Part shown: positions 56,417-64,000 of the stretch, one piece after another | Layout: every line of letters begins with the position of its first letter | How positions within the stretch are numbered: position 1 is the first letter of the stretch | From: Flavobacterium sp. CECT 9288 | GTDB taxonomy: Bacteria; Bacteroidota; Bacteroidia; Flavobacteriales; Flavobacteriaceae | Reading direction: 5' to 3' | NCBI RefSeq assembly: GCF_918731615.1 | Contig: NZ_OU957226.1 | Coordinates: forward strand, 1,426,001-1,490,000 | DNA length: 64,000 nt | Position numbers and translations under genes: made by a program | Notes under the pieces: generated by a model | Seen by the model: only the letters and a program-made list of their open reading frames with translations | The model's database searches: none | Told to the model about the DNA's origin: nothing

Positions 56417-56887
56417 ATGAGGTACTTACTTATATTATTTACGGTGACTTTTCAAGGTCAAGTTTTACATCATCAGATGGTTTCTGCACAAGGAGCTTCC
56501 AAAAAATTACCAGATGGGATTTCAGTTTCACAAACGATTGGCCAAAACAGTAATGTTGGAACTTCAAGTTTTGATTATGTGATTCAGCAGGGATTTCAAC
56601 AGAGTTTTTGGGGAAAGTATATTGCCTCAAATCCACCCGAGAAAATAAAATTTAATACATATCCCAATCCATTTATTAGCGCACTAAATTTTGAATTCTC
56701 AAAACTTATTTCAGAAGATATTGAAGTAAATGTTTTTGATATCAGTGGTAGGTTGGTTTTTAATCAAAGTAAAAAAGCAGATAATTTCCTCTTGACTGTT
56801 TTGCTTCCGTTTTTATCAAGAGGAGAATACCTAGTTCGCTTAAATACTTCAACGTTTTCAGTATATACCAAAATCATAAAACTATGA
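56417..56887 (+). CDS. Small secreted protein with T9SS type-A sorting domain
   Basis: 156 residues. A signal-like N-terminus (MRYLLILFTVTFQGQ) is followed by a 60-residue region (SQTIGQNSNVGTSSFDYVIQQGFQQSFWGKY). From residue 75 comes the type IX secretion C-terminal domain: FNTYPNPFISALNFEFS, VNVFDISGRLVFNQ and GEYLVRLNTSTFSVYTKIIKL. The product is exported by the Por/T9SS machinery and may be attached to the surface. It is positioned about 340 bases upstream of the giant fibre gene and may be co-regulated with it. Confidence 0.85.
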   Translation: MRYLLILFTVTFQGQVLHHQMVSAQGASKKLPDGISVSQTIGQNSNVGTSSFDYVIQQGFQQSFWGKYIASNPPEKIKFNTYPNPFISALNFEFSKLISEDIEVNVFDISGRLVFNQSKKADNFLLTVLLPFLSRGEYLVRLNTSTFSVYTKIIKL

Positions 56888-57168
56888 CAAAAAATTACAC
56901 TTCCTTATGTGAGTATTTAGCAGCATTTTTCCGAATAATGAAAGTAAATTTTTTGTCGAAGCATGCTTTTATTTTTTTTCCGTTTACTGCCGTGCGAAAT
57001 TTTCCTTTACTCTTCTCCGATTTTCGAAAACAGTTGCTTCTTATTCAACGCAGAATAATTAGAGTATTCGCCAATAAGAATCTTCAGAATAGCAATATGA
57101 GTTATTTAATACTTCCCATTGTAGTGGAACTTCCAAAAGTTCTATCGAAAACGTGTAGGCAATTCTAA
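56884..57168 (+). CDS. Doubtful open frame, 94 residues
   Basis: This ATG overlaps the previous stop (ATGA) and runs 94 codons. Composition is basic and aromatic (FFPFTAVRNFP, KQLLLIQRRIIR), with no signal peptide, no known motif and codon use unlike neighbouring genes. It is probably non-coding spacer leading to the fibre gene, but it may be a translationally coupled small protein. I list it as doubtful rather than as a confident gene. Confidence 0.25.
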   Translation: MTKNYTSLCEYLAAFFRIMKVNFLSKHAFIFFPFTAVRNFPLLFSDFRKQLLLIQRRIIRVFANKNLQNSNMSYLILPIVVELPKVLSKTCRQF

Positions 57169-57229
57169 TTTTTTTAGAACAACTTCAATCTTATTTTTTT
57201 AAAATTTATCACATTTAATGAATCAAATT

Positions 57230-60200
57230 ATGAAAAAAATTATTTTGCTCTTCATCTTTTTTCTTTGTGTAAAGGGTTTTGCACAAAGCAATGGAATTAC
57301 GTATCAGGCCGTTATTTTGAAACCCACTAATAAAATTTCTTCAGTAACTAGTGAAAATCTGCCTGTAGCAAACAAAAACGTATGCATGCAATTCCAGTTT
57401 GTAGATGAGTTTTCAAAGATCGAATACCAGGAAGTTATTCAAACCACGACAGATCAATACGGGATGGTAAATCTTGTAATAGGTACAGGTACTCGCAATG
57501 GTGGTTATGCATCATCTTTTGATAATATAGCATGGGTTGCGGCTCAAAAAAAGTTGGTTGTAAGTATTAACATTTCAGGCGATTGTTCGTCATTTACTGA
57601 AATTAGCAATCAACCGTTTACGACCGTTCCGTTTGCTTATGCCGCAATAAATAGTACGAATGTAACAGGTGTTGTAGCTGTTGAAAATGGAGGTACGAAT
57701 GCTACCACGATTTTAGGAGCCAAAACGACATTGGAACTGGATCAAGTTGATAACACATCGGATGTTGCAAAGCCAATTAGTGATGCTACGAAATCAGCAC
57801 TCCAATTGAAAGAAGATATAGCCAACAAAAGCACTAATTTTACACAAGATGGAAGTTCGGACGTTAAGTTTCCAACTGTGAAAGCAACTAAAACGTATGT
57901 AGATACAGGAATAAATACACTATTTGCAACAACGCAAACCGCTTTAGATTTAAAAGCAAATTTGGCTTCGCCAACATTTACAGGAACCGTTTCGGGAATC
58001 GATAAAACGATGGTAGGATTGTCGAATGTGGATAACACCAGCGATGCCAACAAACCTATTTCTACGGCTGCTCAATCAGCGTTAAATTTAAAAGCAAATT
58101 TAGCTTCACCAACTTTTACAGGATCGGTTTCGGGAATTGATAAAACAATGGTTGGCTTAGCAAACGTTGATAACACTAGCGATGCCAATAAACCCGTTTC
58201 AGCTGCTGCTCAAACTGCTTTAGATTTAAAAGCCAATTTAGTTTCGCCAACTTTTACAGGAACGGTTTCAGGAATTGATAAAACAATGGTTGGATTGTCG
58301 AATGTGGACAACACTAGCGATGCGAATAAACCTGTTTCTGCAGCAACACAATCAGGTTTAGATTTAAAAGCAAATTTAGCTTCGCCAACTTTCACAGGAA
58401 CCGTTTCAGGAATTGATAAAACGATGGTTGGCTTAGGCAATGTCGATAACACTAGCGATGCGAACAAACCAGTTTCTACGGCAGCGCAAACCGCTTTAGA
58501 TTTAAAAGCGAATTTAGCTTCGCCAACTTTTACAGGAACGGTTTCAGGAATTGATAAAACAATGGTTGGATTGTCGAATGTGGATAACACTAGCGATGCC
58601 AATAAACCAACTTCAGTAGCAACACAATCAGCTTTAGATTTAAAAGCGAATTTGGCTTCACCAACATTCACAGGAACGGTTTCAGGAATTGATAAAACGA
58701 TGGTGGGATTGTCGAATGTGGACAATACCAGCGATGCGAATAAACCTGTTTCTGCAGCAACACAATCAGCTTTAGATTTAAAAGCAAATTTAGCTTCGCC
58801 AACTTTCACAGGAACCGTTTCAGGAATTGATAAAACGATGGTTGGCTTAGGCAATGTCGATAACACTAGCGATGCGAACAAACCAGTTTCTACGGCAGCG
58901 CAAACCGCTTTAGATTTAAAAGCGAATTTGGCTTCACCAACATTCACAGGAACGGTTTCAGGAATTGATAAAACAATGGTTGGCTTAGGCAATGTCGATA
59001 ACACTAGTGATGCGAACAAACCTATTTCAGCTGCTGCTCAAAACGCTTTAGATTTAAAAGCACCTTTGAATTCGCCAACTTTTACAGGAACGGTTTCAGG
59101 AATTGATAAAACAATGGTTGGCTTAGGCAATGTCGACAACACTAGTGATGCGAACAAACCAGTTTCAGCTGCTGCTCAAAACGCTTTAGATTTAAAAGCA
59201 AATTTGGCTTCTCCAACTTTCACAGGAACGGTTTCAGGAATCGATAAAACGATGGTTGGATTGTCGAATGTGGACAACACTAGCGATGCGAATAAACCTG
59301 TTTCTGCAGCAACACAATCAGGTTTAGATTTAAAAGCAAATTTAGCTTCGCCAACTTTCACAGGAACCGTTTCAGGAATTGATAAAACGATGGTTGGCTT
59401 AGGCAATGTCGATAACACTAGCGATGCGAACAAACCAGTTTCTACGGCAGCGCAAACCGCTTTAGATTTAAAAGCGAATTTAGCTTCGCCAACTTTTACA
59501 GGAACGGTTTCAGGAATTGATAAAACAATGGTTGGATTGTCGAATGTGGACAACACTAGCGATGCGAATAAACCTGTTTCTGCAGCAACACAATCAGGTT
59601 TAGATTTAAAAGCAAATTTAGCTTCGCCAACTTTCACAGGAACCGTTTCAGGAATTGATAAAACGATGGTTGGCTTAGGCAATGTCGATAACACTAGCGA
59701 TGCGAACAAACCAGTTTCTACGGCAGCGCAAACCGCTTTAGATTTAAAAGCGAATTTAGCTTCGCCAACTTTTACAGGAACGGTTTCAGGAATTGATAAA
59801 ACAATGGTTGGATTGTCGAATGTGGATAACACTAGCGATGCCAATAAACCAACTTCAGTAGCAACACAATCAGCTTTAGATTTAAAAGCGAATTTGGCTT
59901 CACCAACATTCACAGGAACGGTTTCAGGAATTGATAAAACGATGGTGGGATTGTCGAATGTGGACAATACCAGCGATGCGAATAAACCTGTTTCTGCAGC
60001 AACACAATCAGCTTTAGATTTAAAAGCAAATTTAGCTTCGCCAACTTTCACAGGAACCGTTTCAGGAATTGATAAAACGATGGTTGGCTTAGGCAATGTC
60101 GATAACACTAGCGATGCGAACAAACCAGTTTCTACGGCAGCGCAAACCGCTTTAGATTTAAAAGCGAATTTGGCTTCACCAACATTCACAGGAACGGTTT

Positions 60201-63200
60201 CAGGAATTGATAAAACAATGGTTGGCTTAGGCAATGTCGATAACACTAGTGATGCGAACAAACCTATTTCAGCTGCTGCTCAAAACGCTTTAGATTTAAA
60301 AGCACCTTTGAATTCGCCAACTTTTACAGGAACGGTTTCAGGAATTGATAAAACAATGGTTGGCTTAGGCAATGTCGACAACACTAGTGATGCGAACAAA
60401 CCAGTTTCAGCTGCTGCTCAAAACGCTTTAGATTTAAAAGCAAATTTGGCTTCTCCAACTTTCACAGGAACGGTTTCAGGAATCGATAAAACGATGGTTG
60501 GATTGTCGAATGTAGATAACACCAGCGATGCGAACAAACCTGTTTCTGCAGCAACACAATCAGCTTTAGATTTAAAAGCAAATTTAGCTTCGCCAACTTT
60601 CACAGGAACCGTTTCAGGAATTGATAAAACGATGGTTGGCTTAGGCAATGTCGATAACACTAGCGATGCGAACAAACCAGTTTCTACGGCAGCGCAAACC
60701 GCTTTAGATTTAAAAGCAAATTTAGCTTCGCCAACATTCACAGGAACCGTTTCAGGAATTGATAAAACGATGGTTGGATTGTCCAATGTCGATAACACCA
60801 GCGATGCGAACAAACCAACTTCAGCAGCAACACAATCAGCTTTAGATTTAAAAGCGAATTTGAATTCGCCAATATTTACCGGAACCGTTTCGGGAATTGA
60901 TAAAACGATGGTTGGATTGTCCAATGTCGATAACACCAGCGATGCGAACAAGCCAGTTTCTTCTGCTGCGCAAACCGCTTTAGATTTAAAAGCAAATTTA
61001 GCTTCGCCAACTTTCACAGGAACCGTTTCAGGAATTGATAAAACAATGGTTGGCTTAGCGAACGTTGATAATACTTCGGATGCCAACAAACCAGTTTCAG
61101 CTGCTGCGCAATCATCCTTGGATTTAAAAGCAAATTTGGCTTCTCCAACTTTCACAGGAACCGTTTCAGGAATTGATAAAACAATGGTTGGCTTAGCGAA
61201 CGTTGATAATACTTCGGATGCCAACAAACCAGTTTCAGCTGCTGCGCAATCATCCTTGGATTTAAAAGCAAATTTGGCTTCTCCAACTTTCACAGGAACC
61301 GTTTCTGGAATTGATAAAACGATGGTGGGATTATCCAATGTGGACAATACCAGCGATGCGAACAAACCTATTTCAACTGCTGCGCAATCTGCCTTGGACT
61401 TAAAAGCGAACTTAGCTTCGCCAACTTTTACAGGAACGGTTTCAGGAATTGATAAAACGATGGTTGGATTGTCCAATGTGGACAATACCAGCGATGCGAA
61501 CAAACCAACTTCAGCAGCAACACAATCAGCTTTAGATTTAAAAGCGAATTTGAATTCGCCAATATTTACCGGAACCGTTTCGGGAATTGATAAAACGATG
61601 GTGGGCTTGGCAAACGTTGATAACACCAGCGATGTAAACAAACCAACTTCAGCAGCAACACAATCAGCATTAGATTTAAAAGCGAACTTAGCTTCGCCAA
61701 CTTTTACAGGAACGGTTTCAGGAATTGATAAAACAATGGTGGGATTGTCGAATGTGGATAACACTAGCGATGCGAACAAGCCAGTTTCTTCTGCTGCGCA
61801 AACCGCTTTAGATTTAAAAGCAAATTTAGCTTCGCCAACTTTCACAGGAACCGTTTCAGGAATTGATAAAACAATGGTTGGCTTAGCGAATGTGGACAAT
61901 ACCAGCGATGCGAACAAACCAGTTTCAGCTGCTGCTCAAAATGCTTTAGATTTAAAAGCAAATTTGGCTTCTCCAACTTTCACAGGAACCGTTTCTGGAA
62001 TTGATAAAACGATGGTGGGATTATCCAATGTGGACAATACCAGCGATGCGAACAAACCTATTTCAACTGCTGCGCAATCTGCCTTGGACTTAAAAGCGAA
62101 CTTAGCTTCTCCAACTTTCACAGGAACCGTTTCTGGAATTGATAAAACGATGGTGGGATTATCCAATGTGGACAATACCAGCGATGCGAACAAACCTATT
62201 TCAACTGCTGCGCAATCTGCCTTGGACTTAAAAGCGAACTTAGCTTCGCCAACTTTTACAGGAACGGTTTCAGGAATTGATAAAACGATGGTTGGATTGT
62301 CCAATGTGGACAATACCAGCGATGCGAACAAACCAACTTCAGCAGCAACACAATCAGCTTTAGATTTAAAAGCGAATTTGAATTCGCCAATATTTACCGG
62401 AACCGTTTCGGGAATTGATAAAACGATGGTGGGCTTGGCAAACGTTGATAACACCAGCGATGTAAACAAACCAACTTCAGCAGCAACACAATCAGCATTA
62501 GATTTAAAAGCGAACTTAGCTTCGCCAACTTTTACAGGAACGGTTTCAGGAATTGATAAAACAATGGTGGGATTGTCGAATGTGGATAACACTAGCGATG
62601 CGAACAAGCCAGTTTCTTCTGCTGCGCAAACCGCTTTAGATTTAAAAGCAAATTTGGCTTCTCCAACTTTCACAGGAACCGTTTCAGGAATTGATAAAAC
62701 AATGGTTGGCTTATCGAACGTTGATAATACTTCGGATGCCAACAAACCAGTTTCAGCTGCTGCGCAATCATCCTTGGATTTAAAAGCAAATTTGGCTTCT
62801 CCAACTTTCACAGGAACCGTTTCTGGAATTGATAAAACGATGGTGGGATTATCCAATGTGGACAATACCAGCGATGCGAACAAACCTATTTCAACTGCTG
62901 CGCAATCTGCCTTGGACTTAAAAGCGAACTTAGCTTCGCCAACTTTTACAGGAACGGTTTCAGGAATTGATAAAACAATGGTGGGATTGTCGAATGTGGA
63001 TAACACCAGCGATGCGAACAAACCAGTTTCTACGGCAGCGCAAACCGCTTTAGATTTAAAAGCGAATTTGGCTTCACCAACATTCACAGGAACGGTTTCA
63101 GGAATTGATAAAACGATGGTTGGATTGTCAAATGTCGATAACACTAGCGATGCGAACAAACCAGTTTCTACGGCAGCGCAAACCGCTTTAGATTTAAAAG

Positions 63201-64000
63201 CGAATTTGGCTTCACCAACTTTTACAGGATCACCTCTAGCACCAACTCCAACCGCAGGAGTTTCTAATGGCTTAATAGCAACAACAGAATTTGTAACAGA
63301 TGCTGTTGCAACTGCTACAGCAAATACGAATACTAATTTCGTTAATTTAACATCTGCTCAAACAATTTCAGGGGTAAAAAGTTTTAGCGTTGATGCAGTG
63401 ATTAATGGAATTACAGTAGGTAGAGGGAATTTTAATGAAAATTCAAATACAGCTGTGGGACTAGGAACTTTAGCAAATAATGCTGGGTATGCTAATACTG
63501 GAGTAGGTAGAGGGGCATTAGCCTCAAATGGGGCGGCAGGAGGAAATACGGCATTGGGTTATATTGCATTATCAAACAATGTTTCAGGAACAGACAATGT
63601 TGCCATAGGTACGCAAACATTGCAGACAAATGTATCAGGGTCACAAAATACTGCTATTGGAAAAAATGCAAATGTTGCAACAGATGGTATTTCTAATTCG
63701 GTAGCAATTGGCGCAAATGCAATAGTTACCTCTTCAAATACTATTCAATTAGGATCAGATGGTAGTGGTTCACATGCACCTATAACAGATGTAAAAACTA
63801 GTGGTGCTATCACTGCAGCTTCGTTCAAAGTAGCTGGAGGAACAGCCGCACAATTTTTAAAAGCAGATGGTTCAGTTTCAACTGAAGCTATTTTGGAAGT
63901 TGCAGACGAATTTAGTGCAACTACGGCTCAAACTTCATTTACTTTAACGCAAACTAAATCACCCAACAGCAAGGTTAAAATGTATATCAATGGAATACGA
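57230..64000 (+). CDS. Giant secreted fibre-like protein with 38 tail-fibre repeats, truncated at right edge
   Basis: The frame is open from ATG 57230 (an in-frame Met at 57218 is also possible) to the last base: 2257 codons, no stop. Signal peptide MKKIILLFIFFLCVKGFAQ. Residues 22-165 form a beta-rich N-terminal domain (GITYQAVIL, VCMQFQFVD, QYGMVNLVIGTG, FTTVPFAYAAINS). Then come one degenerate unit and 38 units of 46 residues (238-1985) with the fixed core GIDKTMVGL-NVDNTSD-NKP and ALDLKANL-SPTFTG. Residues 1986-2060 are SPLAPTPTAGV-type linker, and about 2066-2182 YadA-like NTAIG/NVAIG beta-roll turns. LASPTFTG and VDNTSDANKP are phage tail-fibre hallmarks, so a trimeric fibre is likely. 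The C-terminus lies outside the window. Confidence 0.9.
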   Translation, partial: MKKIILLFIFFLCVKGFAQSNGITYQAVILKPTNKISSVTSENLPVANKNVCMQFQFVDEFSKIEYQEVIQTTTDQYGMVNLVIGTGTRNGGYASSFDNIAWVAAQKKLVVSINISGDCSSFTEISNQPFTTVPFAYAAINSTNVTGVVAVENGGTNATTILGAKTTLELDQVDNTSDVAKPISDATKSALQLKEDIANKSTNFTQDGSSDVKFPTVKATKTYVDTGINTLFATTQTALDLKANLASPTFTGTVSGIDKTMVGLSNVDNTSDANKPISTAAQSALNLKANLASPTFTGSVSGIDKTMVGLANVDNTSDANKPVSAAAQTALDLKANLVSPTFTGTVSGIDKTMVGLSNVDNTSDANKPVSAATQSGLDLKANLASPTFTGTVSGIDKTMVGLGNVDNTSDANKPVSTAAQTALDLKANLASPTFTGTVSGIDKTMVGLSNVDNTSDANKPTSVATQSALDLKANLASPTFTGTVSGIDKTMVGLSNVDNTSDANKPVSAATQSALDLKANLASPTFTGTVSGIDKTMVGLGNVDNTSDANKPVSTAAQTALDLKANLASPTFTGTVSGIDKTMVGLGNVDNTSDANKPISAAAQNALDLKAPLNSPTFTGTVSGIDKTMVGLGNVDNTSDANKPVSAAAQNALDLKANLASPTFTGTVSGIDKTMVGLSNVDNTSDANKPVSAATQSGLDLKANLASPTFTGTVSGIDKTMVGLGNVDNTSDANKPVSTAAQTALDLKANLASPTFTGTVSGIDKTMVGLSNVDNTSDANKPVSAATQSGLDLKANLASPTFTGTVSGIDKTMVGLGNVDNTSDANKPVSTAAQTALDLKANLASPTFTGTVSGIDKTMVGLSNVDNTSDANKPTSVATQSALDLKANLASPTFTGTVSGIDKTMVGLSNVDNTSDANKPVSAATQSALDLKANLASPTFTGTVSGIDKTMVGLGNVDNTSDANKPVSTAAQTALDLKANLASPTFTGTVSGIDKTMVGLGNVDNTSDANKPISAAAQNALDLKAPLNSPTFTGTVSGIDKTMVGLGNVDNTSDANKPVSAAAQNALDLKANLASPTFTGTVSGIDKTMVGLSNVDNTSDANKPVSAATQSALDLKANLASPTFTGTVSGIDKTMVGLGNVDNTSDANKPVSTAAQTALDLKANLASPTFTGTVSGIDKTMVGLSNVDNTSDANKPTSAATQSALDLKANLNSPIFTGTVSGIDKTMVGLSNVDNTSDANKPVSSAAQTALDLKANLASPTFTGTVSGIDKTMVGLANVDNTSDANKPVSAAAQSSLDLKANLASPTFTGTVSGIDKTMVGLANVDNTSDANKPVSAAAQSSLDLKANLASPTFTGTVSGIDKTMVGLSNVDNTSDANKPISTAAQSALDLKANLASPTFTGTVSGIDKTMVGLSNVDNTSDANKPTSAATQSALDLKANLNSPIFTGTVSGIDKTMVGLANVDNTSDVNKPTSAATQSALDLKANLASPTFTGTVSGIDKTMVGLSNVDNTSDANKPVSSAAQTALDLKANLASPTFTGTVSGIDKTMVGLANVDNTSDANKPVSAAAQNALDLKANLASPTFTGTVSGIDKTMVGLSNVDNTSDANKPISTAAQSALDLKANLASPTFTGTVSGIDKTMVGLSNVDNTSDANKPISTAAQSALDLKANLASPTFTGTVSGIDKTMVGLSNVDNTSDANKPTSAATQSALDLKANLNSPIFTGTVSGIDKTMVGLANVDNTSDVNKPTSAATQSALDLKANLASPTFTGTVSGIDKTMVGLSNVDNTSDANKPVSSAAQTALDLKANLASPTFTGTVSGIDKTMVGLSNVDNTSDANKPVSAAAQSSLDLKANLASPTFTGTVSGIDKTMVGLSNVDNTSDANKPISTAAQSALDLKANLASPTFTGTVSGIDKTMVGLSNVDNTSDANKPVSTAAQTALDLKANLASPTFTGTVSGIDKTMVGLSNVDNTSDANKPVSTAAQTALDLKANLASPTFTGSPLAPTPTAGVSNGLIATTEFVTDAVATATANTNTNFVNLTSAQTISGVKSFSVDAVINGITVGRGNFNENSNTAVGLGTLANNAGYANTGVGRGALASNGAAGGNTALGYIALSNNVSGTDNVAIGTQTLQTNVSGSQNTAIGKNANVATDGISNSVAIGANAIVTSSNTIQLGSDGSGSHAPITDVKTSGAITAASFKVAGGTAAQFLKADGSVSTEAILEVADEFSATTAQTSFTLTQTKSPNSKVKMYINGIR
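57941..63184 (+). repeat. Tandem 138-bp coding repeat, 38 units
   Basis: Units start every 138 bases from 57941. The GATAAAAC landmark is at 58001 and at 63107, exactly 37 periods apart, and spot checks (58139, 60761) fall in register, so no indels. Units are nearly identical, differing mainly by synonymous changes and at the AQ-linker positions. Blocks of 9 units (1242-bp offset, 58233-59269 vs 59475-60511) and 6 units (828-bp offset, about 61279-61820 vs 62107-62648) match over long stretches, as do single and double units. Confidence 0.93.

Follow-up and report, generated by a model that had tools for sequence, protein, structure and literature searches.

How phage-fibre-like adhesins that lack an anchor are exported and held at the cell surface is an open question, and it is raised by a giant repeat gene in Flavobacterium sp. 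CECT 9288 (3.70-Mb genome, two-contig assembly). We analyzed a 64,000-nucleotide stretch of this genome (the window) and read the fibre gene on beyond its edge. The gene encodes a protein of 2294 aa; its start, chosen by homology, is the ATG at 57230, and its stop codon, at 64114, lies beyond the window. The original prediction of a giant open frame with 38 repeat units was confirmed, and neither a frameshift nor an early stop was found past the edge. The protein begins with a signal peptide (57230..57286; this and all features below are on the + strand), which was read from the sequence and corresponds to a helix at residues 2-16 of an AF2 model; Q19 at its end is invariant in both family alignments (A1 and A4). 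It is followed by a beta-rich N-terminal domain with conserved C52 and C119 (57287..57649), identified as MAT_N-like by the profile NF053851 and modelled by AF2 with strands across residues 23-130 (mean pLDDT 81). The linker (57650..57940) contains a FPTVKATKTYVD module as well as a single divergent VDNTSD unit, and its module types also occur in the shafts of relatives. The shaft proper comprises 38 tandem 138-bp units of 46 aa each (57941..63184), of the phage-tail-fibre type by their matches to PHROG tail families. After a partial 39th unit and a linker to the head (63185..63427) comes a YadA-head-like beta-roll with a stalk behind it (63428..63895), assigned from fold matches and an AF2 model of the equivalent part of a relative (L066). 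The C-terminal module (EVADEF...RIQFDYFY) runs from 63896 to the window edge at 64000 and on to the stop. Comparison with L066 gave dN/dS values of 0.134 for the N-terminal 235 codons and 0.103 for the C-terminal 228 codons, and the N-terminal part compared with L065 (F. tiangeerense) gave 0.075, all indicating purifying selection.

The 38 full units and the beginning of the 39th are in perfect register. Variation among the 38 units is almost entirely silent (dS 0.63, dN 0.053, ratio 0.085), and the array is under purifying selection. Identical units recurred in 6 of 29 comparisons at a shift of nine units and in 3 of 32 at a shift of six, the pattern that copying of several units at a time would leave; the array grew block by block. 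The same exact copies might suggest that the count of 38 is an assembly artefact, as might the contig of L065, which matches at 97% in its best segment and breaks inside its second unit. We consider such an artefact unlikely, since every unit is in register despite heavy silent divergence, the frame is open throughout and the assembly has only two contigs. The other close relative, L066 (Flavobacterium sp. I-STPP5a, 91%), has 16 units and a second head roll, and the largest unit count in the other 79 named loci described below was 13; these counts are lower bounds wherever the frame runs off the contig, as it does in 32 of the 80. Among 234 family proteins the largest count was 20. The window therefore holds the longest array seen, the extreme of a variable trait. 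In L066, the closest complete relative (L066:10001-14680), an in-frame stop in the second unit, which we counted across, reflects either a sequencing error or decay.

The similarity of this gene to phage genes is extensive. A query of three units matched 271 of 50,697 phage records, at 60-80% identity in the best place in 218 of the 271. The roll matches phage structural proteins by sequence, and the fold of the C-terminal module resembles phage tailspike, neck and T7 gp17 N-terminal domains. The fibre thus shares its LASPTFTG..VDNTSDANKP unit, roll and C-terminal module with the tail fibres of phages of Arthrobacter, Mycobacterium, Synechococcus and others, and differs from them in its cellular signal peptide and N-domain and in the lack of phage neighbours in the stretches viewed. 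These matches would be in keeping with a phage tail fibre, either within a prophage or in the remains of a recent phage, but that reading is largely refuted and retains only a very slight probability. The protein has a Sec-type start, and we saw by eye no tail or baseplate genes among the window ORFs or in the 32 kb downstream. The N-domain had no significant match in the 50,697 phage records (best E 1), and none of 23 stretches from a two-pattern scan of IMG/VR was confirmed, and the domain is found in 80 of 150 genomes of the genus. By eye, the flanks are ccsA-like upstream and dihydrouridine-synthase-like downstream, and both recur in several relatives. The earlier view, that the gene is no prophage component but encodes a secreted cellular protein resembling a phage fibre, was supported, and no phage genes were seen downstream.

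The N-domain links the fibre to its closest described kind, the mosaic adhesive trimer (MAT) fibres of Bdellovibrio bacteriovorus, which are displayed on the cell surface (PMC10769870). Each of the 21 Bdellovibrio MATs carries a beta-rich domain of approximately 130 aa immediately behind its signal peptide, and what binds this conserved N-domain at the surface awaits identification (PMC10769870). The window fibre likewise has a beta-rich domain of this size directly after its signal peptide, and it matched NF053851 (Bdello_MAT_N) with E 2.3e-5 and 24.2 bits, against a curated cut-off of 60 bits. At E<=1e-3 the profile matched all 21 of the 21 aligned family members (A1), with a best E of 1.5e-7, and it was found in 77 of 296 Bacteroidota genomes and in 0 of 14 control genomes. 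None of the 296 Bacteroidota genomes had a match above the curated cut-off, and because the scores lie under it we call the family MAT-like and do not file it as MAT. The mosaic build of MAT proteins, a conserved N-terminus with exchanged C-termini, is also seen in the family. In addition to the signal peptide, the related N-domain and the exchanged C-terminal ends, the two groups share a phage-fibre-like body. They differ in that the window fibre belongs to the Bacteroidota, has an N-domain scoring under the MAT_N cut-off and carries a much longer homogeneous array, and in that fibre genes of its family have upstream of them a partner gene with a type IX secretion (T9SS) tag, in many loci together with a barrel-like gene.

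The locus had been proposed as a candidate for an undescribed system. As a system standing alone this was not supported: the fibre belongs to a broad Bacteroidota family, and its N-domain is related to that of the described MAT fibres. The N-domain with the linker was present in 56 of the 150 genus genomes at E<=1e-3, and a wider N-domain profile gave the count of 80 mentioned above at E<=1e-8. A pattern scan of GTDB contigs gave 233 stretches, of which 195 were confirmed; the 80 kept as named loci came mostly from Flavobacterium but also from Pedobacter, Pricia, Aquirufa, Polaribacter and others. Family proteins numbered 216 out of 2047 candidates, and their source names were mostly 'hypothetical' or 'beta strand repeat-containing', so that many proteins under such names are now linked to a described adhesive family. 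By eye, a single N-domain is combined with different shafts (SPTFTG units, a TTNLATEV type and a KSTDVTTDG..KTYVD type), and the C-termini vary among relatives, with precomputed S74, DUF1566-type, FISUMP, collagen and YadA_head domains. Lectin-like C-termini and head rolls also occur. These proteins form a large, unnamed Bacteroidota fibre family with the same N-domain and interchangeable shafts and C-termini. One locus (L055:2358-20000) has a pair of fibre genes, both preceded by a small T9SS gene of their own, as well as more fibre-like genes. Three relatives combine the same N-domain with an OmpA-type C-terminal domain (L071 by Pfam, L038 and L093 by eye); such ends are expected to be periplasmic and are therefore at odds with a simple picture in which the C-terminus points outward.

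The complete fibre contains no type Vc anchor, no T9SS sorting domain and no Peptidase_S74 domain (PF13884) in Pfam and NCBIfam scans at E<=1, so the anchors for which the original prediction had suggested a search are all missing from these profile scans. A type Vc trimeric autotransporter, held by its own C-terminal barrel, would account for the YadA-type head, and some matches of the C-terminal region carry the name trimeric autotransporter adhesin in their source. The window fibre does share the head-type beta-roll with type Vc adhesins (YadA, EibD, CbpF), but we found no C-terminal membrane anchor by Pfam or NCBIfam in the complete protein, and its C-terminus is a phage-type module that differs between relatives, which makes this identity extremely improbable. 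A fibre that remains periplasmic and works there as a spacer or tether would fit the OmpA-type ends of the three relatives and the lack of a surface anchor of its own. This is improbable in turn, given the head rolls and lectin-like C-termini of relatives, the surface display of MAT fibres (PMC10769870) and a predicted length that exceeds the periplasm. We regard a MAT-like surface fibre as the probable identity of the protein: a long, presumably trimeric adhesion fibre that would work like the Bdellovibrio MAT fibres. The N-domain would stay at the cell surface with the C-terminus pointing outward, and the shaft would serve as a trimeric spacer on the order of 0.1 micrometre or more, with a length of about 136 nm when scaled from the published model of approximately 550 Angstrom for Bd3182, of about 922 residues.

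What is new at this locus is a small, near-bare T9SS type A protein encoded just upstream of the fibre. The gene (56417..56887) specifies a secreted protein of 156 aa with a signal peptide, a conserved region of approximately 60 aa (LHHQM..QTIGQ..QGFQQ; alignment A2) and a type A sorting domain scoring 43.9 bits against TIGR04183 (cut-off 23) and 42.3 bits against PF18962 (cut-off 27); little else is present. The sorting domain is a likeness to the T9SS type A and B substrates of Flavobacterium (RemA, and SprB with SprF), from which the fibre differs in having none itself. In its own genome this gene is the sole match that covers the whole partner model; 2 of the 13 matches are in short frames and the others are the sorting domains of large proteins. 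The T9SS core genes PorU and SprA are present in the genome above cut-off. The dN/dS of the small gene was 0.216 against L066 and 0.263 against L065, which also indicates purifying selection.

The partner gene was upstream of 22 of 22 fibres in a first set (21 fibres on 20 stretches and the window's own, after one weak row was dropped) and in 75 of the 80 named loci, which come partly from the same records. Of the 41 N-domain hits at E<=1e-30 in the 150 genus genomes, 39 were preceded by the partner on the same strand at a distance of 22-1261 bp, or 40 of 42 when one weaker N-domain hit (G001) is counted. Conversely, 40 of 46 partner hits at E<=1e-15 were upstream of an N-domain, and four of the remaining six were at contig ends; these partner hits came from 30 genomes, all 30 of which have the N-domain. 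The other 50 of the 80 genomes with an N-domain at E<=1e-8 had only weaker N-domain hits and no partner at E<=1e-15. Because all these loci are related and partly overlapping, we sampled 40 further genomes in the order in which their MAT_N matches were listed, skipping two with in-frame stops; seven of the 40 belonged to the same genus. A short partner ORF ended within 700 bp upstream in 25 of these 40 loci (5 of the 7 from the same genus and 20 of the 33 from other genera). The 15 loci without a counted partner include one (L178) that has such a gene by eye and one whose match sat in a frame of 807 aa. Among hand-picked loci the partner was found in 15 of 20, and one of the remaining five (L163) has it downstream. 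The partner is conserved across several families of the phylum, yet it is not universal. In distant Bacteroidota (L165-L172), frames of 1378-4741 aa with a MAT_N match were accompanied by an upstream partner-like ORF of 189-247 aa in seven of eight loci.

The small protein may supply what the fibre lacks, through export of the two as a complex or as a surface dock. Alternatively, it could be a surface protein in its own right that shares only regulation with the fibre and takes no part in fibre export; adjacency alone is compatible with this, as are the 15 of 40 unselected loci without a counted partner. Against independence, several families across the phylum retain the pair, and beyond its sorting domain the small protein carries next to no cargo; we consider independence rather doubtful. 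We incline modestly toward the reading of a surface fibre in which the T9SS partner is involved in some way. Adjacency is not interaction, and that the partner exports or docks the fibre, judged from gene order and domain content, is a close call falling slightly short of an even chance. Type A substrates are believed to emerge from the translocon with the CTD leading and in complex with PorV (PMC10994853). We tentatively suggest, as a somewhat unlikely version of the proposal, that the small protein acts as a sorting signal in trans: it would bind the N-domain, take the CTD-less fibre through the T9SS and stay behind as its dock. If true, this would be a two-component T9SS export route, and the surface element still sought for MAT-type N-domains would be identified in the Bacteroidota. 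The relatives with OmpA-type ends and the loci without a partner are what chiefly argues against any one simple picture. With the pair of a fibre and a mini T9SS substrate, the question of export and surface holding can be put to the test in a genus that has laboratory genetics in place (F. johnsoniae).

A gene starting 25 bp after the fibre stop encodes a secreted protein of 1028 aa with GGGWT, Ig-like and arabinofuranosidase-B-like domains (dN/dS 0.123 against L066). The C-terminal module of the fibre may hold this protein as a separately made tip, an idea that we consider rather unlikely. After two loci with short flanks were dropped, an ORF followed within 147 bp in 21 of 21 loci with the same tip and within 400 bp in 22 of 26 loci with other tips, so the downstream link is not specific.

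Between the partner and the fibre, many relatives carry a gene for a barrel-like protein of approximately 205 aa, which was full length in 63 of the 80 loci, partial or split in five and absent in 12. Genes of type B adhesins often have a dedicated outer-membrane partner encoded next to them (PMC12618676, PMC10994853); PorP/SprF was absent from the families listed for the barrel-like protein. The window has a gap at the corresponding site (56888..57229), inferred from position, in which MTKNY is the only start-like reading left. We found no significant barrel match in the window and no copy elsewhere in the genome, and a gene lost in this way cannot be essential. A barrel remnant was recovered from one record (L037/L070), with 37.7 bits over 56 aa and a profile E of 8e-6; an E of 2e-8 was computed against four short gap sequences only. 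From these sequences, it looks as if the barrel-like gene is being lost in one branch while the fibre and the T9SS partner stay. Partial or decayed barrel-like copies were seen at L037:7915-8215 and upstream of the fibre in L069, L092 and L130. In eight loci (L039, L040, L043, L045, L046 and L050-L052), the operon is preceded by a divergent gene that by eye has the look of a membrane-bound AraC-type regulator.
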